IMG/VR virus record: IMGVR_UViG_3300025151_000123
Span: 1 to 36,596 of that record
From: a virus
DNA length: 36,596 nucleotides
Strand: one strand, 5' to 3'
Shown here: positions 4,351 to 35,830 of the stretch, one piece after another
How the letters are laid out: the number at the start of each line of letters is the position of its first letter
Numbering within the stretch: position 1 is the stretch's first letter
Program-made: the position numbers and the translations under genes
Notes under the pieces: generated by a model
Database searches by the model: none
What the model was told of the DNA's origin: nothing
Seen by the model: only the letters and a program-made list of their open reading frames with translations

Positions 4351-4425
4351 TGGTGGCGGGGGCGGGAGTCGAACCCGCGTTTTCGGCATATGAAACCGAA
4401 GTCGTGACCACTAGACCACCCCGCT
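4351..4425 (-). tRNA. tRNA with CAT anticodon (Met, or Ile if C34 is modified)
   Basis: A full cloverleaf of 75 nt with encoded CCA. U8 is present; the D-loop has GG. The anticodon stem TCGGT/GCCGA encloses a seven-base loop with CAT after TT, and the T-arm has GCGGG, TTCGACT and CCCGC. The acceptor stem pairs at positions 2-7, but positions 1 and 72 are A and C and cannot pair in Watson-Crick fashion. Initiator tRNAs of bacteria also have an unpaired 1:72 (C and A), yet this tRNA lacks three G-C pairs in the anticodon stem (the last is U31-G39) and has the elongator-type U11-A24. It starts 2 bp after the stop codon of the upstream small gene and is probably cotranscribed with it. Met is likelier than Ile, but I cannot settle this. 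Confidence 0.85.
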
Positions 4426-4426
4426 A

Positions 4427-4717
4427 TTACCAAAGGTGCTTGCATGCCCAATATCTCGCAGTTGTCTTGTCTTTCGCTGTGTCGCAGTTGTGGCGTGCGC
4501 GGAAGTTTGCCCGTCGTTTCGGGTCTTTGTGTTTAGTGAAATCGCTGTAATCACGATGTCCATACGACACTTTTTTGATCTTGTCACCCTGTTTGCCCAA
4601 AACGACGAACTTTTTCTTAGATCCTTTCGGGGCGCGTTTGGGTTTATTAAAGCCGGAGAAGGTCTCTCCATGATACTGGATACGACCCGAGGGTAAACGC
4701 TTAAAACGTGACGCCAT
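4427..4717 (-). CDS. Small basic conserved phage protein (DUF5754-like)
   Basis: 96 residues, strongly basic. The pattern KKFVVLGKQGDKIKKVSYG followed by KHKDPKRRANFRARHNC and a C-terminal ARYWACKHLW resembles a small family of unknown function that I remember from marine phages and large algal viruses as DUF5754; the number is from memory. A nucleic-acid-binding role would suit the charge but is not shown. The ATG at 4717 lies 6 bp after a -10 box, suggesting a leaderless message. The stop is followed at once by the tRNA gene. Confidence 0.65.
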   Translation of the reverse strand: MASRFKRLPSGRIQYHGETFSGFNKPKRAPKGSKKKFVVLGKQGDKIKKVSYGHRDYSDFTKHKDPKRRANFRARHNCDTAKDKTTARYWACKHLW

Positions 4718-4752: not shown

Positions 4753-4760
4753 CGATACAG

Positions 4761-4896
4761 CTTTGGTGCTGTGAAACGGTTTTTCGGAAAAAAACTTTGC
4801 GCTAGAACCTTTGGTGCTGCAAAACGGTTTTACAGCACCAAAGACTTTAAAGAAAAGTTTTTACTATAGGGGCAAAACCGTTTCACAGCACCAAAG
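4761..4896. repeat. Palindromic repeat block A (four 23-bp units)
   Basis: Four copies of a unit reading CTTTGGTGCTG then YRAAACSGTTTT. The outer copies (4761-4783 forward, 4874-4896 reverse) are perfect inverted repeats. The inner two merge into a 35-bp near-perfect palindrome at 4809-4843. The block sits between the large terminase stop codon (4899-4901) and the TTGACA box of the next leftward promoter. The whole block recurs, inverted and about nine changes away by eye, at 34915-35051. Confidence 0.9.
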
Positions 4897-4898
4897 AT

Positions 4899-6686
4899 TT
4901 ACGCAATCAGTTGGCAGTCAGTGTTTTGTAGCGATTTCTGCAAATCCCCGATAGTGACCGGACGCTTGAAAACCCCACCTGAATCCTCTTTCGGTGGGTC
5001 GATAGCGACCAATCCGAGCCTCTGCCGCGCACAATCGAGCGCGAGAAACGCTGCGTCAGCGAGGTCAGGTGACCGACCGAATCGTGATTTGAAGTCCGGT
5101 TTGGACTCGATCTTGACCTTGAGAGATCCGGTTTTGATCATGTCGTAGTTGCGAGCGCACATCTCCTGAGCCAAATCTGTATTCACATTGTATATCTGTT
5201 TGGTCCTCATCAGCTCCTTTCCGACGAACCACAGCTCGCTCACACGATTTGTGTAGAGTTCTTCTCCGGTTAGTTGGCTGTTCATCGACACACGCTTGTC
5301 AGATGGCTTGCCACCGAACGAGACTCTCATAAAGGAGTTGGACCACTCTCCGGCCAGAACGTCACAGAATGGTGCGCCTGCGCCTGTGGAGTCCACCGCC
5401 ACGTTCTCTGGCGTCACCCCACGCTTCTTACAGTGTTCGATAATCTGGTGGACGATCTGATACGTTCTGGGAACGGCCTTGTTTGTGGCGTCGTCGTTCA
5501 AATGGATAGCTTCCCCGAACTGACAGACGTATTGACCATTTTTGGCGTAACCCACTTCTGCCGTAAATAGGATAGTCCGGTCACCCCCGTTGGTGAAAGC
5601 GGGGTCGATTCCCGCGACAGTAGTTGGTTTGTCCGCCCAATCGACCTTACTCATCGAACCGCTTTTCGAGAGTTCCGATTCGCTGTATATACCCGTCGTC
5701 TCGTCTGAGTCGAAGAATACGGCCCGAACCATTCGCATGTATCCGCGAGACTCTGGTCCCAGTAGCGCACGATCTTCCTCTAGCTTCGCTGCTGTAGGTA
5801 GCCACGGATACTTTTCTTCGCCGGAAGTGATATTCGGACTCCGCTCACCATCTAGGCGCAAGTAGTGTCCGTTCCATTTGGTCGTCCACTCGTCCGCTGT
5901 CTGCACGTCAATAGAGTCCCAGCCGCTCTTCGGCTCACTCCAGACACCGAACGCATCAAAACGACTATTCGGGTTACTCATCCCGATCATCTGGAAAAAC
6001 GGGTTCTTAGACAAGTTTGTCAGACCAGCATTCAGAATGGCTTCGGACAGTTCCGAAAGCTCGTCACCGATAAGAATGACGCGCTTCTGCTTAATACCAA
6101 TGAATTTGCCGACAGCCTCTCTGGTCTTGCTTTTCTCCGCAGCGATAAGCGAAAGCCCAGCTCGCTCGATAAGAGTGCCGTTTTGATCGACGTATGCTGC
6201 ATTACCGATTGAATCCCGTATCTTGATTGGTGCGCCCTCAATCACGGACAGTAATGACATTACACTACCCCAGATACGCTTACGGGCTTCACGGAGCGTG
6301 GTGCTTGTCATCAGGACCAGAGTATCCTTTGGCTGAGAGAGCCATTGTAGAATACCCCATGCGGCCATCGTATGTGATTTTCCGCTCGATGCACTACCAC
6401 CTACTGCCAGATACTTGTGCTTGATGGCTTTACGGATCATCTGCTCTGCCCACGGATGACGGATCATCATCGGTTCCGGCAAATCTTCATGATTCCAGAG
6501 TTCGTCACATAGTCTCCAGAAGTAGTATTCTCTGGCGTTCGCCTTCGGGTGGTGTGCGAAACCATACAGAAGAGCAGTTAATAAACTGGTCGGTGCAATC
6601 TCAAGACCACCAACGTCCATCATTTTGCTTACTGGATGAATTCTTGGCTCAAGAACTTTCTTGCGTTTCTCGGCAGCTTTTGACAT
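4899..6686 (-). CDS. terL: Terminase large subunit (packaging ATPase-nuclease)
   Basis: 595 residues, a normal length for the family. This is the motor that translocates and cuts DNA at the portal. The ATPase domain shows a Walker A motif GGSASSGKS at residues 96-104 and a Walker B motif VILIGDE at 203-209. The RNase H-like nuclease domain shows the expected acidic residues: D361 in AGIDPAF, D432 in VAVDSTG and D541/D544 in DLADA. The ATG at 6686 has no Shine-Dalgarno. It lies only 15 bp from the oppositely directed ATG of the gene at 6702. Downstream is palindromic block A. Confidence 0.95.
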   Translation of the reverse strand: MSKAAEKRKKVLEPRIHPVSKMMDVGGLEIAPTSLLTALLYGFAHHPKANAREYYFWRLCDELWNHEDLPEPMMIRHPWAEQMIRKAIKHKYLAVGGSASSGKSHTMAAWGILQWLSQPKDTLVLMTSTTLREARKRIWGSVMSLLSVIEGAPIKIRDSIGNAAYVDQNGTLIERAGLSLIAAEKSKTREAVGKFIGIKQKRVILIGDELSELSEAILNAGLTNLSKNPFFQMIGMSNPNSRFDAFGVWSEPKSGWDSIDVQTADEWTTKWNGHYLRLDGERSPNITSGEEKYPWLPTAAKLEEDRALLGPESRGYMRMVRAVFFDSDETTGIYSESELSKSGSMSKVDWADKPTTVAGIDPAFTNGGDRTILFTAEVGYAKNGQYVCQFGEAIHLNDDATNKAVPRTYQIVHQIIEHCKKRGVTPENVAVDSTGAGAPFCDVLAGEWSNSFMRVSFGGKPSDKRVSMNSQLTGEELYTNRVSELWFVGKELMRTKQIYNVNTDLAQEMCARNYDMIKTGSLKVKIESKPDFKSRFGRSPDLADAAFLALDCARQRLGLVAIDPPKEDSGGVFKRPVTIGDLQKSLQNTDCQLIA

Positions 6687-6701: not shown

Positions 6702-7355
6702 ATGGACTTTGAACCAGAAGACAAGAGTAAGTATGATGAGCAGCTTCGCGTTAACCCACGATTGAAGCCTGCTTTGAAACTACTCCAGAAAGGCCACGCC
6801 AATACGTCTATCGCTAAAGAACTCGGCGTTCATCCAGTAACGGTGCGTAGCTGGTTCCGCAAAGCTACTCTGCCTGCCAGACGATACGCACCCCATATCG
6901 AAGCCGACCGCAAAGCTGCCGAGGACGCAGAGAAGCGAGTAATGGAAGGCGAAGACGCAGAAGAGATTCTAGAGTCCTATTCTAATAGTGCGGCAGCGGA
7001 ATTGCGACGCAACGCATCTGAGCGCGAAGACGAGATCATGGCAGAAGTCGCGGCAGCGCAACAGACTCCGGCTGACAAGTATCAACACTACGTCGCTGCT
7101 GCTGGTATCAAACTTCTTCGTGACTCAATTAAGAATCTCAAAGGTCCGCGCACAGTTCGTGAGCTTTCCGAGCTAGATCAGCTCATCCGCCGTAATCTGG
7201 GACTCAACGCTAAAAACACTGGCGGTCAGAGTCGCATGGCTATCGACATATCCATCCTAAATAACGGTATTGCTGACAAAGGAAAAGGCTCGTTGAGCAG
7301 TATGAAGAAAGACGTGGTCGAAGCAGAAGTGATCGACGAAGAGAAAAAACAGTAA
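6702..7355 (+). CDS. HTH protein, probable terminase small subunit
   Basis: 217 residues. Residues 20-57 form a helix-turn-helix of the type KLLQKGHANTSIAKELGV followed by HPVTVRSWFRKA, as in the DNA-recognition domains of many small terminase subunits. A long charged helical middle and a C-terminal region with an ELSELDQLIRRNLGL pattern resemble small terminases of podoviruses. It starts back to back with the large terminase, which supports a packaging role. The divergent arrangement is unusual, because small and large subunits are usually codirectional. A transcription regulator with the same HTH is the main alternative. Confidence 0.6.
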   Translation: MDFEPEDKSKYDEQLRVNPRLKPALKLLQKGHANTSIAKELGVHPVTVRSWFRKATLPARRYAPHIEADRKAAEDAEKRVMEGEDAEEILESYSNSAAAELRRNASEREDEIMAEVAAAQQTPADKYQHYVAAAGIKLLRDSIKNLKGPRTVRELSELDQLIRRNLGLNAKNTGGQSRMAIDISILNNGIADKGKGSLSSMKKDVVEAEVIDEEKKQ

Positions 7356-27086: not shown

Positions 27087-27436
27087 TAGCTTGCGGTGAT
27101 GTGGGTGATGTTCGGGATCACATCGACTTGACCACGAAGGAGGTGAATAGTTGCGCTAGCAGAGCTATCAGTCCAGAAAACGTCATACTCATACGTTCTG
27201 GAAGGGTCGAGCTTGAGTGTCTCTGCTTTAGGTAGTTTCAACTCGACCAACCCCGATAACTGGGTCACGTCGAAAGTGAACGTAGCAATCTTCGGTGCGC
27301 CATACTGGCGGCGGACCTCGCCAGCAAACGTGTCGCCAGACAGGGTGACCACCGCATCAGAAGCGTCGCGGATAACCAGCTCAAAGGAGAAGTCTTCTCC
27401 GCGAGCTACTTTGAGGTTGTATTCAGGAGCTGCCAT
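27086..27436 (-). CDS. Small beta-sandwich tail protein
   Basis: 116 residues, all beta in appearance. The layout YNLKVARGEDFSFELVI, then DTFAGEVRR, FDVTQLSGLVELKLP and YEYDVFW resembles BppU-like or Ig-like adaptor domains found before fibre genes in many phages. It lies directly upstream of the fibre and is coupled to it, so a fibre-attachment role is plausible but not proven. Confidence 0.55.
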   Translation of the reverse strand: MAAPEYNLKVARGEDFSFELVIRDASDAVVTLSGDTFAGEVRRQYGAPKIATFTFDVTQLSGLVELKLPKAETLKLDPSRTYEYDVFWTDSSASATIHLLRGQVDVIPNITHITAS

Positions 27437-27749
27437 CGTTCGTCATCGCCTTCTCTACAGCGACGACGAAGCCTACATTATCAGACTTATCTTGTCCAGC
27501 CCCGCCGTGACCGCCGTTGATTACATAGTCGTGGACCGTGTCCAGATAGTCGTCAGCCAGAGTCATCTTACTCTGGACCCACGCCTCAACAAGCTGGGGA
27601 GAACCGCAGGCGCAGCTCTCCTTCAGCTTGCTGGCGTTGGCCATAATGTTGCAGAGCTGTTGGTAGATCATTTCATGATCCTTCTGCATGTCGTGGCTCA
27701 TTTCGCCACCACTTCCAGAATCACCAGCTTCTCCATACACTTTATTCAT
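27423..27749 (-). CDS. Small conserved helical protein
   Basis: 108 residues. The core QLCNIMANASKLKE, then CACG and EAWVQSKMTLADDYLDTVHDYV is helical and common in small proteins of aquatic phages encoded among virion genes; its function is unknown to me. The two Cys-Gly residues are the only notable chemistry. It overlaps the next gene by 14 bp. Confidence 0.5.
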   Translation of the reverse strand: MNKVYGEAGDSGSGGEMSHDMQKDHEMIYQQLCNIMANASKLKESCACGSPQLVEAWVQSKMTLADDYLDTVHDYVINGGHGGAGQDKSDNVGFVVAVEKAMTNDGSS

Positions 27750-27750
27750 A

Positions 27751-28755
27751 TCAGACGTAGTCGTAGTCGCGATAGATCCTCAGAGCGAACTGGTTTGGAC
27801 TCATGGCCTCAAAGGCGTCGGGGCCAAGTTCCATAGCGAGTTCCTCGATCTGAGCCATCTTCTGCTTGTCCATACGGGACTTAGGATCGAATGACCCGCC
27901 GTGAATGGTAGAGAACAACTCTTGAGCCTTCTCTGGGGTGAGTAGGGCTTTCGCTTTTGGGGCTTCTTCTGATTCAGCGGCTGGCATTTCAGCGGCTGGT
28001 TCAGCGGCTGGTTTAGCGGCTGGTTTAGCGGCTGGTTCAGCGGCTGGTTCGTCTTCTGCATAGAAGGCTTCAGCGAACTCACCTACTTCTTCGGGGGTCA
28101 TATCCCGAACACTTTTCCATGTGTCCATGTCTCCTGACGCTTTCAGGTCCATGAAAATCTGATCCATGAGATCCTGTCCTACAGCACGTGAAGTCTCTTG
28201 ACGTTCGCCAGCGGTATCAACAAGTTCTTGACCACCTTCACCCATCTTTCTCTCTAGTTCTGCAGCGGATTTTCGCGCACGTCTCTTATCGTCGTCCCGC
28301 TCTAATGCGGCCTGAGCTGCGCCATAGATTGTATCAGTTGGGCTGACCGCGCCTCGCAAAGCGTTTTCAATCGCGCCAAGGAATCCAGCGTTTTCACCGA
28401 GTTCGTCGAAACGATCTTCGGCGGCTTTACGCTTATCGGCGTCGGTGGCTAGGCCGAAGGCATTCGCAGCCTCCAGCGTTAAACCAACTGGGGCGGCGAG
28501 TTTCCCCGCAGCTTTGCCAGCGGTTTTGGTAGCTGCGGATGCTTTAGCTGCACCTCGCCCAGCCTTTCCCGCGAGGGTTGATCCAGTTGGTGTGGAGGAA
28601 CCAGCAGCCCTACCAAGATTAAACTGTGTCCTAACTTTTTGTAGGCTCTTTGGTAGTTTTCGCATCCGCTCCCCAGACGAGATTTGTGACGCCCTATAAC
28701 GGGACATCGCGGCGCGTTCTGCTGGACTTAGTTGTGACGGATCAATGGTGGCCAT
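27751..28755 (-). CDS. Virion-associated protein with AAEPAAKP repeats
   Basis: 334 residues. The N-terminal third is basic and Ala/Gly/Lys-rich. A hydrophobic Ala/Gly region near residues 80-105 and charged helices follow. Residues about 235-262 are AAEPAAKP-type repeats, the C-terminal 60 a compact helical domain. No catalytic motif is visible. First gene after a terminator and before the fibre genes; probably a structural or internal protein. The Pro/Ala/Glu repeats resemble those of the gene at the left edge of the window. Confidence 0.5.
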   Translation of the reverse strand: MATIDPSQLSPAERAAMSRYRASQISSGERMRKLPKSLQKVRTQFNLGRAAGSSTPTGSTLAGKAGRGAAKASAATKTAGKAAGKLAAPVGLTLEAANAFGLATDADKRKAAEDRFDELGENAGFLGAIENALRGAVSPTDTIYGAAQAALERDDDKRRARKSAAELERKMGEGGQELVDTAGERQETSRAVGQDLMDQIFMDLKASGDMDTWKSVRDMTPEEVGEFAEAFYAEDEPAAEPAAKPAAKPAAEPAAEMPAAESEEAPKAKALLTPEKAQELFSTIHGGSFDPKSRMDKQKMAQIEELAMELGPDAFEAMSPNQFALRIYRDYDYV

Positions 28756-28769
28756 ATTGCTATGAAAGT

Positions 28770-28814
28770 AAAAAAGAACCCCGCTTCCCGTTTATGGTTC
28801 AGGAAACGGGGTTC
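28770..28814 (-). terminator. Rho-independent terminator after the capsid unit
   Basis: On the minus strand, GAACCCCG (28807-28814) pairs with CGGGGTTC (28776-28783), with an inner AAACGGG/CCCGTTT that can form an alternative stem, followed by TTTTTT (28770-28775). It lies between the small post-capsid gene and the 27751-28755 gene. Confidence 0.8.
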
Positions 28815-28839
28815 GTAATTGGTGTGGGAACGCCTTAGA

Positions 28840-29037
28840 TTAGGCTGGGTCAAGTGTGGCCTGTAGCGCAAGAGCTAGCTCAGAGAGTTTGATGGTCTTG
28901 GCTTTCTGCTCCGACTGATCGTAAATCTGAATCAGGTCATCACCATGGGCGCGGCTAGCGACATCTGCGGTGACCCCGGCGTTGGTTCCGGTTAGGCTTG
29001 CAACCTGATCGGTTGGCGCGTCATCAAGAGTAGGCAT
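28840..29037 (-). CDS. Small post-capsid protein
   Basis: 65 residues, acidic N-terminus, then a short beta-rich segment (DLIQIYDQSEQKAKTIKLSE, read as two parts) and a helix. It resembles short proteins of the head-fibre or decoration type only in size and position behind the capsid gene. A strong hairpin separates it from the capsid gene, so it is probably expressed less. Confidence 0.5.
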   Translation of the reverse strand: MPTLDDAPTDQVASLTGTNAGVTADVASRAHGDDLIQIYDQSEQKAKTIKLSELALALQATLDPA

Positions 29038-29054
29038 GATAATAGAAAGGTTGC

Positions 29055-29090
29055 AGCGAGGTTCCCGAAAATAACTTCGGGAACCTCGCT
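29055..29090 (-). terminator. Strong hairpin between capsid and post-capsid genes
   Basis: A perfect 15-bp stem (29055-29069 with 29076-29090, arms AGCGAGGTTCCCGAA and its complement) with a 6-nt loop. There is no U-rich tract after it, so it may be a partial terminator or RNA-processing or stability element rather than a full stop. Confidence 0.6.
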
Positions 29091-29097
29091 AGATTGA

Positions 29098-30441
29098 TTA
29101 GGCAGCAGGAGTGCTGGAAGTCCGCTTGAACAAGATGACGTAACCGAATTCGGTCTTGATCGGCTTGGTCGCGCTGGCAAGCACACCCCGGAAGAAACCG
29201 ATAGTCCCGTCAGGGTTGGTAACTTCGTTAACGATGTTCTTCCAATCGAACTTACCACGGTAGTTGACCGGATTGAAGGTCACTCCGCTAGCACCAGTCA
29301 TCGGATTCGGGATCTGCGATTCGCAGACTTCCGGATGGATGATGAAAGCCGCCTCGAAATCAGCGGTGTCGTAAGAAGCGTTCGGCGTGGCAACTCCAGC
29401 AGAAACGGTGTAAGGCTCGATCTTAGTGACCGCGCCAGTGCTGATGCTGAACCGAGGTGCGAGGTCATCGACCAGATGGTAGAAACCACGGAATGACTTC
29501 TCAATACCCAACGGAGCGATGAGGTCACTGACCTTCGCGTTGTTGTAGCGAACGTCGTCGCGGAACCCAGCTTCGGTTTGAAGTTGGTAAGACGCTTCAG
29601 ACGACAGAACCAGACCAAACACAGGGCGACCGTTTTCACGACCGTATGCGTTGTTGCCTGCACCAGCCCGGATGAGCTTGAAGTAGATGCTGTCGAGAAC
29701 GGCGTTTGAGATGTTTGCATCAGGAGTGATGTCGCTATTTCCCGAGCCGGATTTAGCGATGTCGAGGCCAGTGAGCAACGCGCCTTCAAACGGATTGTTA
29801 GACGTGTTATCGCCGTCTGAATCGACAGTGGAGCGTGTGACAGAACCAGCAGCAATACAGCAAGTCAGATTAGCCGACACTTTCTCAAACTCATTACGGT
29901 AGCGATTTTCCCAAGTGTTGTGGGTCACTTCCGACATGATGTCCATGATAGCGCGAAGCTGCTCTTGGCGGTGGGCTGCAAAACGGAGGTCTTCCAGCGA
30001 GATGCGTGGTGACTCGATTACAGCGCGTTCCAGCGAATACTTCTTGAGACGCTTACCGAACTGAACAAAGGAGCGGTTGTCAGTGCTACCAGATCCGCGA
30101 CCACCTTGAACGTCGTCAGCAGCGTCGTCGAGAGGTTGTCCGTTTGCTCCAGAGAGCGATGTGTTGAACTGATTACCGCCAGTGGAAAGAGTTCCGACAG
30201 ACGACCACGCATCCGTTCCGGCTACGACGTTACCGCTAGTTAGGGTAGTGGCGACAGCACGGTCATAGACGAGCGTGGTTTGTTGGTAACCCACGCCGTC
30301 AGCGAAAGCGGACTGCTTCATAAGGTCCATCCACGGAGAAGTGTGGAGGGTGCGGGTGTAGATGTCTTGCCCGATGCGGTTAGCTTCTTCGGCAAGAATG
30401 GTGTTAATGGCGGATACGCCAGTTCCAAGATCGAAAGACAT
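29098..30441 (-). CDS. Major capsid protein
   Basis: 447 residues. The start, GVSAINTILAEEANRIGQDIYTR in two helices followed by TSPWMDLMKQ, the long E-loop-like Gly/Ser-rich section and the helix EDLRFAAHRQEQLRAIMDIM are as in HK97-fold capsid proteins of podoviruses in this gene position (portal, scaffold, capsid). The C-terminus FGYVILFKRTSSTPAA gives a final beta strand. It follows the scaffold gene with its own promoter and a long leader, fitting high expression. HK97 fold is inferred from family and position. Confidence 0.8.
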   Translation of the reverse strand: MSFDLGTGVSAINTILAEEANRIGQDIYTRTLHTSPWMDLMKQSAFADGVGYQQTTLVYDRAVATTLTSGNVVAGTDAWSSVGTLSTGGNQFNTSLSGANGQPLDDAADDVQGGRGSGSTDNRSFVQFGKRLKKYSLERAVIESPRISLEDLRFAAHRQEQLRAIMDIMSEVTHNTWENRYRNEFEKVSANLTCCIAAGSVTRSTVDSDGDNTSNNPFEGALLTGLDIAKSGSGNSDITPDANISNAVLDSIYFKLIRAGAGNNAYGRENGRPVFGLVLSSEASYQLQTEAGFRDDVRYNNAKVSDLIAPLGIEKSFRGFYHLVDDLAPRFSISTGAVTKIEPYTVSAGVATPNASYDTADFEAAFIIHPEVCESQIPNPMTGASGVTFNPVNYRGKFDWKNIVNEVTNPDGTIGFFRGVLASATKPIKTEFGYVILFKRTSSTPAA

Positions 30442-30517
30442 GATTCTAAAAGAGGATAGGTGTTAGTGTTCCCGCCCGACTAGCGAGAAACGATTGGTGG
30501 GTTAGGCCGAATCTCTT

Positions 30518-30616
30518 TAGAACTATTCAATGGCTAGAGCAACCAGCAGATTCTATGTGTGGTAGAGGCAAAGCTCTAAAGGATCGACCTAGAACTGATT
30601 TATGGTCAGAGCAACC
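30518..30616. repeat. Imperfect 27-bp direct repeat in the capsid leader
   Basis: Two copies, 30518-30544 and 30590-30616, share TAGAACT at one end and AGAGCAACC at the other, 21 of 27 positions matching. They lie in the 283-bp gap between the scaffold and capsid genes. Confidence 0.65.
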
Positions 30617-30630
30617 GTGTCGATATGGTG

Positions 30631-30659
30631 AAACTACCGTAAACAGTTTTTGTTGTCAA
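30631..30659 (-). promoter_or_regulatory. Candidate promoter for the capsid gene
   Basis: TTGACA at 30654-30659, a 17-bp spacer and TAGTTT at 30631-30636, just past the scaffold terminator. The -10 box is identical to the one at 22972. The predicted leader before the capsid ATG (30441) is about 180 nt and contains the direct repeat. Confidence 0.5.
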
Positions 30660-30671
30660 GTAGGTAACAGA

Positions 30672-30705
30672 AACGCCCACACCGCTATCGAGCAGTGTGG
30701 GCGTT
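30672..30705 (-). terminator. Terminator after the scaffold gene
   Basis: An 11-bp perfect stem (AACGCCCACAC, 30672-30682 with 30695-30705) and a 12-nt loop, followed on the minus strand by TCTGTT, a weak U tract. The capsid promoter -35 box begins about 12 bp further on. Confidence 0.65.
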
Positions 30706-30724
30706 GGAATCGTTGGGGGTGGTG

Positions 30725-31888
30725 TCAGACTGCTCCGAGTGCGGCGTTTACCCGCTCCTCAAATGACGCGGTGTCAGAAACTCCGGCACGTTTGCTGGAT
30801 TCTTTCACAGCACCACTCATTGAAGGCTCTGCGTCTTCGTATTCGGCCAGCCTGTCGGTTAACGCATCCACTTCTTTCTGGAGTGTGACGTATTCACGGA
30901 CAATACTAGGCAGAATCTGGGCCGAAACAGCGTTATACGCCATGTCAACTGGGTGCGCGACAGACGGATCGGTTTCAGAAGCACGTTGCTGGACTGACGA
31001 CATATCGAGACCTTCCAGTCCAGAAAGGAACGGCAGCTTCTGCTGGACCCGTTCCACCACGTTACGGACCACATTCTGGCGGATTTGGGCCTTTTCAGCG
31101 GCCTGCTGCGCCACTTTCTGCTCTTCAAGCTGTTTGGCTTCGGCCAAGGCGGCGTCTGCGTTCTCGAAAAGCTGTGAGCGGCGTTCCAGAATTGGGTCAA
31201 TATCTTCTATAATACGGTAGATTTTGGCCTTATCCCTGTCAGATGCTTCAGCGAGAATCTCAGAAAGCTGCTCTTCTTGGGCATTTGGGTCGTCCATCGC
31301 CAACACATCGACCAAGGCATCGCCGTCGATCTCGTATTTGTCCGCGATCTGGTCGGCCTGCTCCATCAAATTGGTCAATGGATCAGTAACCGCTGTCCGA
31401 TAAGCGTCAGTAGCCTCCAGATTGGAGAACATCTGCTGCTGTTCGTATTCGGCGATCTTCGACTGGAGTGTTTCCACGTCGTGGCTTTCAGCCAGTCCAG
31501 ACAACTCTTTGACCTTCTGCTCGTATTCGGTCGCTTTTTGGCGTAGTTCATCCAGTTCGGAGCGGTTGGTCTTCAGTTCAGCCTTCAGTTGCTTGAACCG
31601 ATTCGCCGCTTTCGGGGTCCAGTCGTCGCCGACCTCGTCCGTCAGTTGCTCAAGTGGCTCAAGTGGCTCTTCGGCTGGCTCTTCGGCTGGCTCTTCGGCT
31701 GGCTCAGTTTCTGTTTCAGCGGCTGTCTCTTCACCAGAAGCAGCGTTTTCGAGTTTTGAAAAAGCCTCTTCTAGCGAAGCCTCGAAAGAAGGCGTCGCCG
31801 ACTCAGCACCAGCATCTGGCAACTGATCAATAGAGGCTTCGGTGGTAGTCTCAGCAGCTTCGGCTACTGGTTCAGCAGGTGCATCCAT
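30725..31888 (-). CDS. Scaffolding protein
   Basis: 387 residues, acidic, largely coiled coil, with a Glu/Pro/Ala-rich N-terminal region containing an EPAEEPAEEP repeat (about residues 60-75), helices through the centre (RFKQLKAELKTNRSELDELR in two turns) and a basic-Ala C-terminus (FEERVNAALGAV). It sits between the portal and the capsid genes, the usual place of scaffolds, and would guide procapsid assembly. It overlaps the preceding gene by 25 bp. Confidence 0.75.
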   Translation of the reverse strand: MDAPAEPVAEAAETTTEASIDQLPDAGAESATPSFEASLEEAFSKLENAASGEETAAETETEPAEEPAEEPAEEPLEPLEQLTDEVGDDWTPKAANRFKQLKAELKTNRSELDELRQKATEYEQKVKELSGLAESHDVETLQSKIAEYEQQQMFSNLEATDAYRTAVTDPLTNLMEQADQIADKYEIDGDALVDVLAMDDPNAQEEQLSEILAEASDRDKAKIYRIIEDIDPILERRSQLFENADAALAEAKQLEEQKVAQQAAEKAQIRQNVVRNVVERVQQKLPFLSGLEGLDMSSVQQRASETDPSVAHPVDMAYNAVSAQILPSIVREYVTLQKEVDALTDRLAEYEDAEPSMSGAVKESSKRAGVSDTASFEERVNAALGAV

Positions 31889-32178
31889 TCTTCGTCGGTG
31901 TTGTTGGTTCGGTTAGCTGGCATCTTCGTTAGTTTGGCCAGATCGTTGTAGGCGTCACGGTATCCAGCGAACCAACTCAATCGGTGGCTGTTCACTTGTG
32001 GATCTTCCGTGATCGACGACGCAGAAGGCGCAGCGGCTTCTTTCAGCGTGGCTACGGCCAACTGAAACGTGTCGTCGTCTAGAATTTCGCGTAATCGGGA
32101 TACCGATTCTTGGTTCAGGAACCAGTGTTCCAGTGATGTAGGGACCGTCGTTTTAGACGGGTTTCGTGCTTTTGCCAT
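31864..32178 (-). CDS. Small protein between portal and scaffold
   Basis: 104 residues. An EHWFLNQESVSRLREIL helix near the start, an Ala/Ser-rich linker (EAAAPSASS) and a C-terminal helix with SWFAGYRDAYNDLAKL. Small helical proteins in this place occur in many podoviruses; function unknown. The start comes 3 bp after the portal stop, and the end overlaps the scaffold start. Confidence 0.6.
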   Translation of the reverse strand: MAKARNPSKTTVPTSLEHWFLNQESVSRLREILDDDTFQLAVATLKEAAAPSASSITEDPQVNSHRLSWFAGYRDAYNDLAKLTKMPANRTNNTDEEWMHLLNQ

Positions 32179-32180
32179 AT

Positions 32181-34406
32181 TCAGGATTGTTCCGTTCGGA
32201 ACTCAAGAGCAGCTTTCGCATCGCGCATTGCTTGCTCCTGATCAAATTTCTTCTGCTTGATCGCCATGTCAAGTTCAGCCTTTTGCTGGGCTATCTGCAT
32301 GTCAACTTGGGCCTTTTGCATCTTCATGTCAACCTCAGATACTTGTGGTTGTTGGCCGGATTGCTCTGCCATTTCAGCTTGTTCGCGCTGAATTTTCTGT
32401 AGTGCCTTCGTCGTGTTGTTGATCGCCTCTTCGGCATACTGCAACGACTGCTTGGTGCTAGCGACAACAGATTGTAAAGCCGGATCACCAGCGGCGAACT
32501 GGAGCGTCTCACTGACGTGTTGGTAAAGTGCTTGTAGTATCGGCAGCGACTGCTGTGGATCAGCTTGTCCAGTATTGATTGCTTCCAGAAGTTGCTGAAG
32601 CAGTGGAACGTGGATCTGCAAGTGCTGGCCGTGCAGCTCGCTTGCGACAACAGGAACAGGCTGGCCTGCTTGCAACTGCTGGTTTTCCAGATAGGCGATC
32701 TTGAGATCAACTGTCGGACGCTGGTCTTCGTTAGCAGGAACGTAGCGGTCTGCCAGATCGTGGCCTACGCGAGTGCTGACAATGTCTCTGGTCAAGTTGC
32801 GGCGACCAACATCGTCGAACTGACCGCTGATGCCTTGAAGCTCGCGCAGTGATACGAGTCGATTTGCCATCGAGCCGTTGCCGATGGAGCGGACTGCTTT
32901 GGTCCGTTTCGTGTCGAGCTTGCGAATGAACTCTTCTTCCACGCCGCGATCCGCGCACCGCTTGAAGAAGTCGCGAATCAATGGATCGTTCTTCTTGCTG
33001 GTAACTACACGACGGACCATTTCTGGCAGTAGTCGGTTCCAGCTTGAGTAAAAGAGATTCAACGATGCGCCAGACAATCTGGTCGCTACGTCCATATCAG
33101 CAACCACTTGCATCTGGTTACGATACGGACTCGACTGCTGTGGTCCGTATGGACTTACAGTATCAGTGTTGAGAGAAAGCTGTTGCGAGATGTCTTGTAA
33201 CGCAGGTTGGACCGCTGTTCCCAGATTGGGAATCGCTTTCTCAATCACGCGCACGTTCGGTGACATCACGGCATACGCGCCGTAGAACGTGAAACTAAGT
33301 TCGTCGAGTGAACGCTGGTTCTCCGGCTGGATCATCACAGCAGAAGCCAACATCGCGCCGTCGATTTGCTGGCAGCGCAATCGGTTACTGGTCTGGATGT
33401 GCGAGAAGATACGCTGGCCCAGTCCGCGAACGGAGTGGTAAGTGCCGTTGCTGCCGACGCCATTGGTAAAGAACACATACGCCTGCTCCGGCGAGTCGTA
33501 TCGGCTAACGCGCTGATACATGAAATCTTTCGGGCTAGACTCAGCACTGATGTAATGGCTAATCGAGCCGTCCATTTCGCGGACCCAGTAGTGCAGAATA
33601 TCAACAGTCGGATTCTGGATTCCAGTATACAGGTCGTTGTTCTTAATCTCCGCCTGCAACGCTTCAAAGTCGCTGAACGTGTTTCCGGTAGTATACGCAC
33701 GACCAGACGTTTTCACGTTTTCCATCATCACCCGCTTCACTTCTTCAATATTCCAGCCAACTGCTTTAGCGGCTTTCTCGTTCTTGATGAAGTGATACAG
33801 TTCGTGCAGATGATACTGGCGGCGACCAATCGCGATGTCGATGGCCTGCTCGCTAGCTGGCGTCTGTCTGGGAATCAAGATGTCAGCAAAGCCGCCAACA
33901 CGAAAACGCCAGTCGTCCGGAGAATCGAAATAAGCGATGCCGACGCCGTGCTTGATGAAAGTATTGCAGAGACGCAAGTAGCTGGAGTGGAACTCAGGCC
34001 AACTCCGGAACAAGTGCGTCAGCTCTTCAGAGACGATGTCTTCTTTTGGGGCATTCTCGCTGCGTTCGCCAGTCGAGCCACGGACTTCTACGAGACGCTC
34101 AAGCGAGCTGTAGAGATCAACATACGCAGAAAGCGAGATGTCGAGTAGCCGTTGTGCTTCACCGAAGTTCAGATTGGTCTTCAGTGATTGTCCGCTCGCG
34201 GCTAGCTGGTTCTGATTGTATGGCGAGGCACCATCAAACATGCCATCAAGTCTAGCACGATTGACGGCGGACTTTTCATCGGCTTTCAGCAACGTAGAGA
34301 AGATGCCAACAGCAGACTTCACGTCTTTCAAACGAGAAGTAACTGGCTTTCCTTTTTCGTCCAGACTCTGCAAGTCAAGACCATCTAGCTCAGGCGGAGT
34401 ATACAT
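32181..34406 (-). CDS. Portal (head-tail connector) protein
   Basis: 741 residues, long for a portal but normal for podoviruses with an extended barrel. The N-terminal region (residues 50-130) and the central part with DVATRLSGASLNLFYSSWNR and YVPANEDQRPTVDLKIAYLE match portal proteins by pattern; the C-terminal 150 residues form Gln-rich helices (barrel) ending in a Lys/Gln/Met coiled coil. It forms the dodecameric DNA channel and docks the terminase. Its promoter lies directly upstream. Confidence 0.85.
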   Translation of the reverse strand: MYTPPELDGLDLQSLDEKGKPVTSRLKDVKSAVGIFSTLLKADEKSAVNRARLDGMFDGASPYNQNQLAASGQSLKTNLNFGEAQRLLDISLSAYVDLYSSLERLVEVRGSTGERSENAPKEDIVSEELTHLFRSWPEFHSSYLRLCNTFIKHGVGIAYFDSPDDWRFRVGGFADILIPRQTPASEQAIDIAIGRRQYHLHELYHFIKNEKAAKAVGWNIEEVKRVMMENVKTSGRAYTTGNTFSDFEALQAEIKNNDLYTGIQNPTVDILHYWVREMDGSISHYISAESSPKDFMYQRVSRYDSPEQAYVFFTNGVGSNGTYHSVRGLGQRIFSHIQTSNRLRCQQIDGAMLASAVMIQPENQRSLDELSFTFYGAYAVMSPNVRVIEKAIPNLGTAVQPALQDISQQLSLNTDTVSPYGPQQSSPYRNQMQVVADMDVATRLSGASLNLFYSSWNRLLPEMVRRVVTSKKNDPLIRDFFKRCADRGVEEEFIRKLDTKRTKAVRSIGNGSMANRLVSLRELQGISGQFDDVGRRNLTRDIVSTRVGHDLADRYVPANEDQRPTVDLKIAYLENQQLQAGQPVPVVASELHGQHLQIHVPLLQQLLEAINTGQADPQQSLPILQALYQHVSETLQFAAGDPALQSVVASTKQSLQYAEEAINNTTKALQKIQREQAEMAEQSGQQPQVSEVDMKMQKAQVDMQIAQQKAELDMAIKQKKFDQEQAMRDAKAALEFRTEQS

Positions 34407-34414
34407 CCGGATGG

Positions 34415-34443
34415 AAAATAAGTGGTTTGCGTCGAAGTGTCAA
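34415..34443 (-). promoter_or_regulatory. Promoter for the portal-capsid unit
   Basis: TTGACA at 34438-34443, a 17-bp spacer and TATTTT at 34415-34420 on the minus strand, 8 bp before the portal ATG at 34406. The -35 box overlaps the last codon and stop of the upstream gene. Confidence 0.65.
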
Positions 34444-34856
34444 GCATTCGGCCACACAAGATCAATTAGATGATCGACCTTTAGATTATGCCTCTTCCCG
34501 AACTTGTTTCGTAGTTGAACGTATGATGATTTGCCACGGAGATGCTCTGTCACGATATGGGGTCGAGGATTCCGGATACCGGATACACGCCACACGGCTC
34601 CGTAAGGCGTTATAGCGTAGTTTGGGTAGTTCGGTATCGTTTTCAGGTCGTCGGGCGTCTGCGTCGAATCTGAGACGATCTCGACACCACTATCGGATAT
34701 GTATGCACGGCAGCGTCTACCATCATCGGATTGGACGACCGAGTAGTTGCCACGGGAAGGCGACCAGAAACGGGCGAGCTGCTTTCCTTTGCGGAGATGG
34801 TAGATGTAACCAGATGACGAGAGTCCGTATTTCGATGCGCCTTTGATGTCTTTCAT
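34440..34856 (-). CDS. NUMOD4-like DNA-binding protein (homing-endonuclease-related)
   Basis: 138 residues from the ATG at 34856. A longer frame starts with a TTG at 34895, but that TTG is part of a TTGACA box. Two related halves each carry a NUMOD4-like pattern: ASKYGLSSSGYIYHL near the start and IPNYPNYAITPYGAVWRV, with SYVQLRNKFGKRHNLKVDHL in the second half. A complete HNH catalytic site is not visible, so it may be a DNA-binding remnant or regulator. It lies between the repeat array and the portal promoter. Confidence 0.5.
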   Translation of the reverse strand: MKDIKGASKYGLSSSGYIYHLRKGKQLARFWSPSRGNYSVVQSDDGRRCRAYISDSGVEIVSDSTQTPDDLKTIPNYPNYAITPYGAVWRVSGIRNPRPHIVTEHLRGKSSYVQLRNKFGKRHNLKVDHLIDLVWPNA

Positions 34857-34895: not shown

Positions 34896-34914
34896 AACTT
34901 TTCTTCAGAAAAGT

Positions 34915-35253
34915 CTTTGGTGCTGTGAAACGGTTTTGCCCTTATAAGAAAAACTTTTCTTTAAAGTCTTTGGTGCTGCAAAACCGTTTTACAGCACCAA
35001 AGGTTCTAGCGCAAAGTTTTTTTCCGAAAAACTGTTCTTACAGCACCAAAGAATCGGCTGTAGCCCGCATAACTTCGTTAAAAGTAAAACAAGTGTTTAA
35101 GAAATGACTAGAAAACCGTATACAGCACCAAAGACTCAAAACTGTTTTTACAGCACCAAAAATCTCTTTGGTGCTGCAAAACGGTTTTGTAATCGGCCTC
35201 TGAAAAGTGTTTTTACGGCACCAAAAATATCTTTGGTGCTGTGAAACGGTTTT
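34915..35253. repeat. Palindromic repeat array B (nine units)
   Basis: This 356-bp gap without a gene holds nine copies of the unit found in block A, on both strands: forward at 34915, 34968, 35166 and 35231; reverse ending at 35002, 35051, 35133, 35160 and 35225. The first four (34915-35051) are an inverted copy of block A. The others form head-to-head pairs around short AT-rich centres (35138-35188 and 35203-35253). The last unit reaches the stop codon of the gene at 35252. An extra hairpin lies at 34897-34914 (ACTTTTC, loop TTCA). Confidence 0.9.
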
Positions 35254-35542
35254 ACCCGCACCCTGAATCCCGATCCTGAACCCGCTTCTTGAGTCGCGCT
35301 CGCTCCTCCGCGAGACGTTTTCTTTGCGCCCGAATCCGCTCTCGATTCTTCCGGTAATACTCTCGATTGTATCGGCTACGGGATTCCTGATTCAGGGTCC
35401 ATAGTTCGGGGTCGAGTTCGCGTTCCAACTCTTTGCGTCGCTCGACTCGATACTTGCCCACTTCGGCGTGGTATTTGTGCTGATACTTGAGCCGTGCCTC
35501 TCGATTCTTGCGGTAGTATTCCTGCTTTTTCGGGTCGGGCAT
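35252..35542 (-). CDS. Small basic protein with repeated EYYRKNRE motif
   Basis: 96 residues from the ATG at 35542, chosen because it lies exactly 6 bp after a -10 box of a TTGACA promoter; a longer frame begins 75 bp upstream. Lys/Arg/Glu-rich and helical. EYYRKNREA near residue 8 and EYYRKNRER near residue 62 are an internal repeat. EYYRKNR-type segments occur beside HNH and GIY-YIG domains as DNA-binding helices, but no nuclease is present here. Its stop codon falls inside the last repeat unit of array B. Confidence 0.5.
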   Translation of the reverse strand: MPDPKKQEYYRKNREARLKYQHKYHAEVGKYRVERRKELERELDPELWTLNQESRSRYNREYYRKNRERIRAQRKRLAEERARLKKRVQDRDSGCG

Positions 35543-35548
35543 GCGCTG

Positions 35549-35577
35549 ATTCTGGCCAGCGTCCGGTAGACTGTCAA
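35549..35577 (-). promoter_or_regulatory. Promoter for the EYYRKNRE gene
   Basis: TTGACA at 35572-35577, a 17-bp spacer and CAGAAT at 35549-35554 on the minus strand, 6 bp before the ATG at 35542. The geometry equals that before 4717 and 22965. Confidence 0.6.
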
Positions 35578-35617
35578 ATTTTTTCACAGGCATACATATA
35601 TACACACGTTGCATCAC

Positions 35618-35793: not shown

Positions 35794-35830
35794 AAAAAAA
35801 AGCCCGCTTGCCATGACTGGCAAGCGGGCT
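35794..35830 (-). terminator. Rho-independent terminator
   Basis: On the minus strand, a perfect 12-bp stem (GCCCGCTTGCCA, 35802-35813 with 35818-35829) with a 4-nt loop runs into eight T residues (35794-35801). It closes the transcription unit of the 35836-36465 gene. Confidence 0.9.

Follow-up and report, generated by a model that had tools for sequence, protein, structure and literature searches.

A genome-specific palindromic element at fixed gene ends of a phage family and its statistical co-variation with a NUMOD4-like protein

MrpR of Bacillus phage SPbeta is a tyrosine recombinase without catalysis that acts as a repressor and reads a short repeated element, SPBRE; SPbeta is temperate, the element is found at about ten promoter sites and binding has been demonstrated (PMC10516654). 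The stoperators of Cluster A mycobacteriophages are genome-specific motifs whose divergence tracks the cognate binding protein. They are asymmetric sites of about 13 bp, up to about 30 per genome and mostly in one orientation (PMC6550527). The apparently non-temperate Cluster O mycobacteriophages carry palindromic 17-bp dyad repeats with predicted dimer binding, in more than 30 copies and with one word common to all five phages (PMC4351075). PeSLs are promoter/stem-loop cassettes of T4-type phages, described in PMC4503421, which cites Arbiol 2010 and Comeau 2014; as outlined there, they combine a stem-loop and a promoter at gene boundaries and are dense in shuffled regions.

The element described here looks like part of a recognition pair whose members evolve together: each phage has a private word, matched within that phage, which tracks a DNA-binding-like protein encoded beside one of the sites.

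The nine-unit array and its distant counterpart

The window, which is the whole stretch of 36,596 nucleotides analysed, is a fragment of a virus record and has no end repeats. Its genes include those for terminase, DNA polymerase A, a primase-like protein, helicase, exonuclease and endolysin; no integrase was present among the ORFs scanned, and a tRNA was the sole Rfam match. P121, P151 and P741 are working names after ORF lengths, and start codons are as predicted.

4427..4717, minus strand: DUF5754 gene, after site 1
4761..4896, no strand: site 1, four-unit copy of the nested block, beginning 2 bp past the TerL stop
4809..4843, no strand: inner palindrome of site 1
4899..6686, minus strand: terminase large subunit (TerL; phrog_2), immediately before site 1
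32181..34406, minus strand: P741, large protein encoded after P151, used as marker gene in the search for relatives
34440..34856, minus strand: P151, 138 aa, tandem NUMOD4-like without HNH core; candidate reader of the word
34915..35253, no strand: site 2, nine-unit array with P121 upstream of it and P151 (minus strand) downstream
34915..35051, no strand: nested block of site 2, four units (outer units and inner palindrome), the family-wide element
34968..35002, no strand: 35-bp inner palindrome of site 2, made of two overlapping units with AAAACCGTTTT in common
35112..35133, minus strand: single partnerless unit
35138..35188, no strand: tail-to-tail pair 1, around AATCT
35203..35253, no strand: tail-to-tail pair 2, around AATAT; its last unit provides two of the three bases of the P121 stop codon
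35252..35617, minus strand: P121, small basic protein in which a YYxKNR motif recurs; a conserved neighbour, abutted at its 3' end by the array

The array at site 2 is one of two copies of a conserved element. An earlier note on this DNA had described it as nine palindromic units, and this was confirmed, with none expected in shuffles. The units match the consensus CTTTGGTGCTGNRAAACNGTTTT at 17-23 of 23 positions and start at 34915, 34968, 35166 and 35231 on the plus strand and at 35002, 35051, 35133, 35161 and 35226 on the minus strand. With up to three mismatches the 23-mer occurs nine times in the window (0.00 in shuffles), and its 10-mer core with up to one mismatch occurs 16 times (2.4 in shuffles). 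Units 2 and 3 stand head to head and overlap, with AAAACCGTTTT common to both. Units 6/7 and 8/9 are indeed paired around AATCT and AATAT, and the two pairs form a tandem duplication of 54 nt with 89% identity. A second block, of four units and inverted, lies at 4761-4896 (94% identity over 140 bp). The reading in the earlier note that the array is neither CRISPR nor a simple tandem array is upheld: units lie on both strands, overlap and are irregularly spaced, and there are no regular direct repeats with unique spacers of similar length. It had also proposed that the last unit supplies the stop codon of the adjacent gene; the overlap is real, but only two of the three TAA bases of 35252-35617 (minus strand) come from the unit.

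The two sites are about 30 kb apart, both at gene ends, and site 1 is inverted relative to site 2 although the flanking genes at both sites run the same way. Computed RNA folds gave z = -10.5 for 34896-35260 and z = -11.2 for 4755-4898. Between the site 1 element and the DUF5754 gene lies the pattern TTGACA-N17-TAATCT, and a tRNA-Met gene (4351-4425) is found just downstream of the DUF5754 gene. Elsewhere in the window, a GC-rich hairpin at 35801-35830 (AGCCCGCTTGCCA...) followed by a minus-strand T-run resembles, by eye, a classical intrinsic terminator, unlike the array; perfect or near-perfect 12/24-bp tandem repeats occur within coding sequence at 3-75, 27969-28050 and 31664-31705.

Fixed places and a private word

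Relatives comprised 29 further records and 144 loci, the latter from a viral collection, where 80 were reached via terminase (428 relatives in all) and 64 via P741. All of these data are metagenomic; three of the 29 records stop 700 to 3,700 bases short of their ends, and G024 represents the middle 20 kb only. Among 50,697 named phage records there was no relative of the family; named phages and plasmids gave no DNA or protein match to the window, and the unit was not found in them. Scanning the viral collection for the exact unit pattern returned one close relative and one match in an unrelated virus (L008), which was rejected as a second carrier and is a chance match. The family is uncultured and, judging from the source sets of the contigs, probably mostly marine. 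The sole hint of a host comes from terminase relatives on four contigs (L233-L236) binned, possibly wrongly, with Opitutae, Blastopirellula and Altibacter MAGs.

Almost all related loci have a palindrome directly after the terminase stop, between P121 and P151, or at both places. Site 2 is nearly universal in the family and site 1 is also present in most sampled genomes. The number of loci per genome is always two, except for three in G005 and G013 and one in a subclade. Site 2 stands alone in the more distant G016-G018, G023, G025 and G026; site 1 is empty in G016-G018, where the TerL ends are too diverged to define a target duplication. Stop codons directly adjoin site 1 and the third sites and, in many genomes, site 2 as well, which bears out the location at gene ends proposed earlier. 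A second tandem copy at site 2 is found in G002-G004, G014 and G027, and growth to nine units is confined to the window, the related L102 having the nested block alone. Unit number is thus variable among the 29 further records, as the earlier note had allowed, but the places are fixed. That note had held that fixed number and place would speak against mobility; with place fixed and number not, mobility is not supported.

The DUF5754 gene follows the terminase in most relatives and is found elsewhere in G016, G018, G020, G021, G023, G025 and G026, which suggests shuffling around site 1. Some genomes carry other palindromes. One, TTAACAACTSAGTTGTTAA, is dispersed through the region of small genes upstream of P121, where most of its 10-17 copies fall between predicted genes (G026 27205-33099 and G023 32064-36611; also L141, L149 and L150), and a different one, GGTATAGTYGGTTATACC, occurs in 11 copies in the corresponding region of G018 (40472-46125). 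In G015, identical palindromes stand in the same order at both record ends (10-261 and 59481-59732), compatible with a terminal repeat.

In its basic form the element consists of a palindrome of about 32-35 bp with spacers and, usually, AAAAACTTTTC / GAAAAGTTTTT arms, and each half extends about 32-34 bp from the centre. The nested block of four half-sites is found in the window lineage and in G007, where the word occurs again on the outer side of the arms. With words for the genome pairs partly hand-picked, identity between site 1 and site 2 averages 95% within a genome and 54% between genomes, and none of 5000 permutations matched as well as the observed pairing. The genome's own word is the single best match in 13 of 18 cases; in the others a close relative ties or nearly ties with it. 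When 11 words are aligned, both partners differ in 10 of the 16 pairs and pairing is retained in 94% of cells, so the dyad has been kept through sequence turnover; palindrome covariation is 0.54 (0.18 when shuffled).

Alignment of the two sites shows that spacers and arms are copied with the word, as a whole cassette of about 70 bp. The cassette has the same orientation at both sites in G002, G005, G009 and G013 and is inverted between them in G000, G003, G004, G007, G011, G012, G014 and G027. Because spacers and arms are shared in either orientation, the cassette is copied between loci and can flip. The word is the most strictly kept part, since in G008 the inner word is identical at the two sites (1.00) while the spacers are at 0.44. 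A DNA inversion switch was rejected: the flanking genes keep one order in all records that have the two sites, and so no large inversion is seen. A promoter within the inner palindrome was also rejected, TATAAT being present in some words and absent from that of the window.

Genes that vary with the word

For each gene family, protein identity was correlated with word similarity, with mean core identity as the control. The matrix correlations come from related genomes (n = 11-30), Mantel permutations leave some phylogeny in them, and they are read as ranking evidence. Among 31 gene families P151 ranks first for the site 1 word (partial r 0.51, 0/500 permutations), followed by the SSB-like protein and the primase (0.46 each). 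Neighbouring genes do not follow the site 1 word (TerL -0.31, DUF5754 -0.34, and P741, which lies beside P151, -0.30). Although encoded 30 kb from site 1, P151 still gives 0.40 (p 0.008) when core, primase and SSB-like protein are controlled for. The earlier note had named the HTH protein at 6702-7355 as a possible binder; it is not the best candidate, its correlation with the word vanishing once P151 is controlled for, and HTH217 was rejected as reader on that result. P121 was likewise rejected, with no correlation after P151. In L102, P741 is 90% like one clade while P151 and the word go with the lineage of the window.

Physical linkage could produce the same pattern. P151 adjoins site 2, so that shared recombination of P151 and site 2, followed by copying to site 1, could give this correlation. 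Across 27-30 site 2 loci the residual correlation is 0.04 for P121 and 0.23 for P151. The N-terminal half of P151 carries the word signal (0.25, and 0.51 in a closely related subset chosen after the fact) and the C-terminal half does not (0.05 and 0.04, respectively). The P121 result and the N-terminal signal limit the linkage explanation but do not remove it, because the N-terminal half is also the part of P151 nearest site 2.

P151 adjoins P741 in every untruncated locus examined, two having been missed by the profile and found by eye. P741 itself had no family match and is portal-like only putatively. P151 is fast-evolving, with about 30% identity where P741 has about 82%. Its AlphaFold model (pLDDT 93) is all-beta with one C-terminal helix. 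Foldseek aligned the model with I-HmuI (1u3e) at probability 1.00 and rmsd 2.2 A over 67 columns, but with an E-value of 0.08. I-HmuI is the sole good-quality structural neighbour among the 50 matches listed; other top-ranked matches, with TM about 0.2 and rmsd about 14, were disregarded. An I-HmuI profile matched P151 at E 0.009. The most frequent Pfam match of the P151 family is NUMOD4 (PF07463), weakly and in 7 of 51 members (best E 0.005), and 40 of the 51 match PHROG HNH families in part. No HNH profile in Pfam matched P151, and the 51-member alignment ends before the HNH core. From its sequence P151 would read as two NUMOD4-like repeats, and it looks like a homing endonuclease without its HNH core.

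Possible functions and comparison with known systems

We propose that P151 reads the genome-specific palindrome, which would serve as operator or roadblock where transcription units end, and that word and P151 co-evolve; we put this at just short of an even chance. A palindromic word would be kept identical at two or three fixed gene ends and most likely be bound by P151, encoded directly beside site 2. Bound at site 2, P151 would control its own operon, and at site 1 the boundary between the terminase and the next operon. Word and N-terminal domain would change together, and intragenomic copying in either orientation would keep the copies alike. P151 binding, the direction of regulation and the copying mechanism are inferred. 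The NUMOD4-like fold suggests that P151 binds DNA, and the arrangement of the sites points to regulation at transcription-unit ends: the elements abut stop codons, site 2 precedes P151 and a promoter-like pattern follows site 1.

The main rival, possible but less probable, is that the elements are PeSL-like terminator cassettes in concerted evolution. Transcription would be stopped by hairpins at gene ends, which recombination or gene conversion would homogenise within a genome; no protein would read them, and the link with P151 would reflect physical linkage at site 2. Elements at the 3' ends of genes suit terminators better than operators. Besides the abutted stop codons and the copying of whole cassettes, spacers included and often inverted, the arms are A-tract/T-tract, the 3' T-run at site 1 exceeds the 5' A-run in 21 of the 23 cases in which their lengths differ, and site 1 is followed by TTGAC-N15-19-TAnnnT in 70 of 75. 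However, site 2 has no T-run asymmetry (8:9) and the promoter pattern in just 4 of 60, and with a forward T-run bias at one site only, simple termination does not explain both. Neither array was called as a terminator by a pattern scan that requires G-C pairs and, beyond the stem, a T-run; rather than a G+C-rich stem directly followed by a U-run, the stems beside T-runs are A+T-rich. Mismatches of GT versus AC type have no significant RNA bias (21:19 and 27:15), and GU-pair asymmetry in folds of the whole element, compared for RNA versus DNA selection, gave none (337 versus 310 pairs). P121 is as linked as P151 yet does not track the word. We favour the operator or roadblock reading over P151-independent terminator cassettes, and the two can be combined.

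It is improbable that the palindromes are replication origins or recombination hotspots read by the SSB-like protein and primase, the families ranking just behind P151. After control for P151 and core, the SSB-like protein keeps a marginal 0.28 (p 0.03), but primase (0.19) and polymerase (0.03) lose significance; moreover, neither site lies within the replication block and site 1 is missing in a subclade. When TerL and P741 replace the core mean as controls, primase (0.35) and SSB-like protein (0.39) are significant after P151, and therefore this alternative is weakened only. The suggestion of the earlier note that these are miniature mobile or REP-like hairpins, which would spread by transposition in trans, is very improbable: terminal inverted arms, inversion between sites, tandem duplications at site 2 and the third copies in two genomes would suit it, but the element occupies just two or three fixed places per genome in the 29 further records rather than the variable places of a MITE or the many dispersed copies of REP/BIME elements with a Y1 (RAYT) transposase, neither Pfam scan of the main ORFs of the window found a transposase, and named phages and plasmids lack the unit.

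If the proposed reading by P151 is confirmed, homing-enzyme domains would have been re-used as regulators, and the family would help to decipher the recognition code of NUMOD4-like domains and would exemplify concerted evolution at unlinked sites of a viral genome. This abundant group of phages supplies about 50 natural variants of a single candidate protein-DNA pair whose specificity diverges. More speculatively, and rather unlikely, a nuclease-less homing-endonuclease derivative and its palindromic address may form a self/non-self recognition pair in apparently lytic phages. Its specificity would change rapidly, intragenomic copying that ignores orientation would keep the two unlinked addresses matched, and related phages whose addresses differ could be incompatible when they share a cell. 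The example also carries a caution, because such arrays, when seen in one genome, resemble repeats or mobile elements.

We do not place the element as a member of the MrpR/SPBRE, stoperator or PeSL systems. As in MrpR/SPBRE, a former DNA enzyme, here P151 as proposed reader, would read a repeated element at several intergenic sites of its own phage; unlike SPbeta, there are two or three sites at gene ends, no integrase or repressor was found, and P151 is a candidate binder. The resemblance to stoperators lies in a genome-specific motif that tracks a phage protein, in contrast to which the present elements are long nested palindromes at two or three loci that flip orientation. Palindromy in apparently non-temperate phages is shared with the Cluster O repeats, whereas here copies are few and the word is new in almost every lineage. 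The layout outlined for PeSLs is present at site 1 (70/75) and in 4/60 at site 2, most copies of which have no promoter pattern, and in place of many copies in shuffled regions there are two or three fixed loci. By analogy, the element probably works most like MrpR/SPBRE and the Cluster A stoperators, with a PeSL-like layout at site 1.
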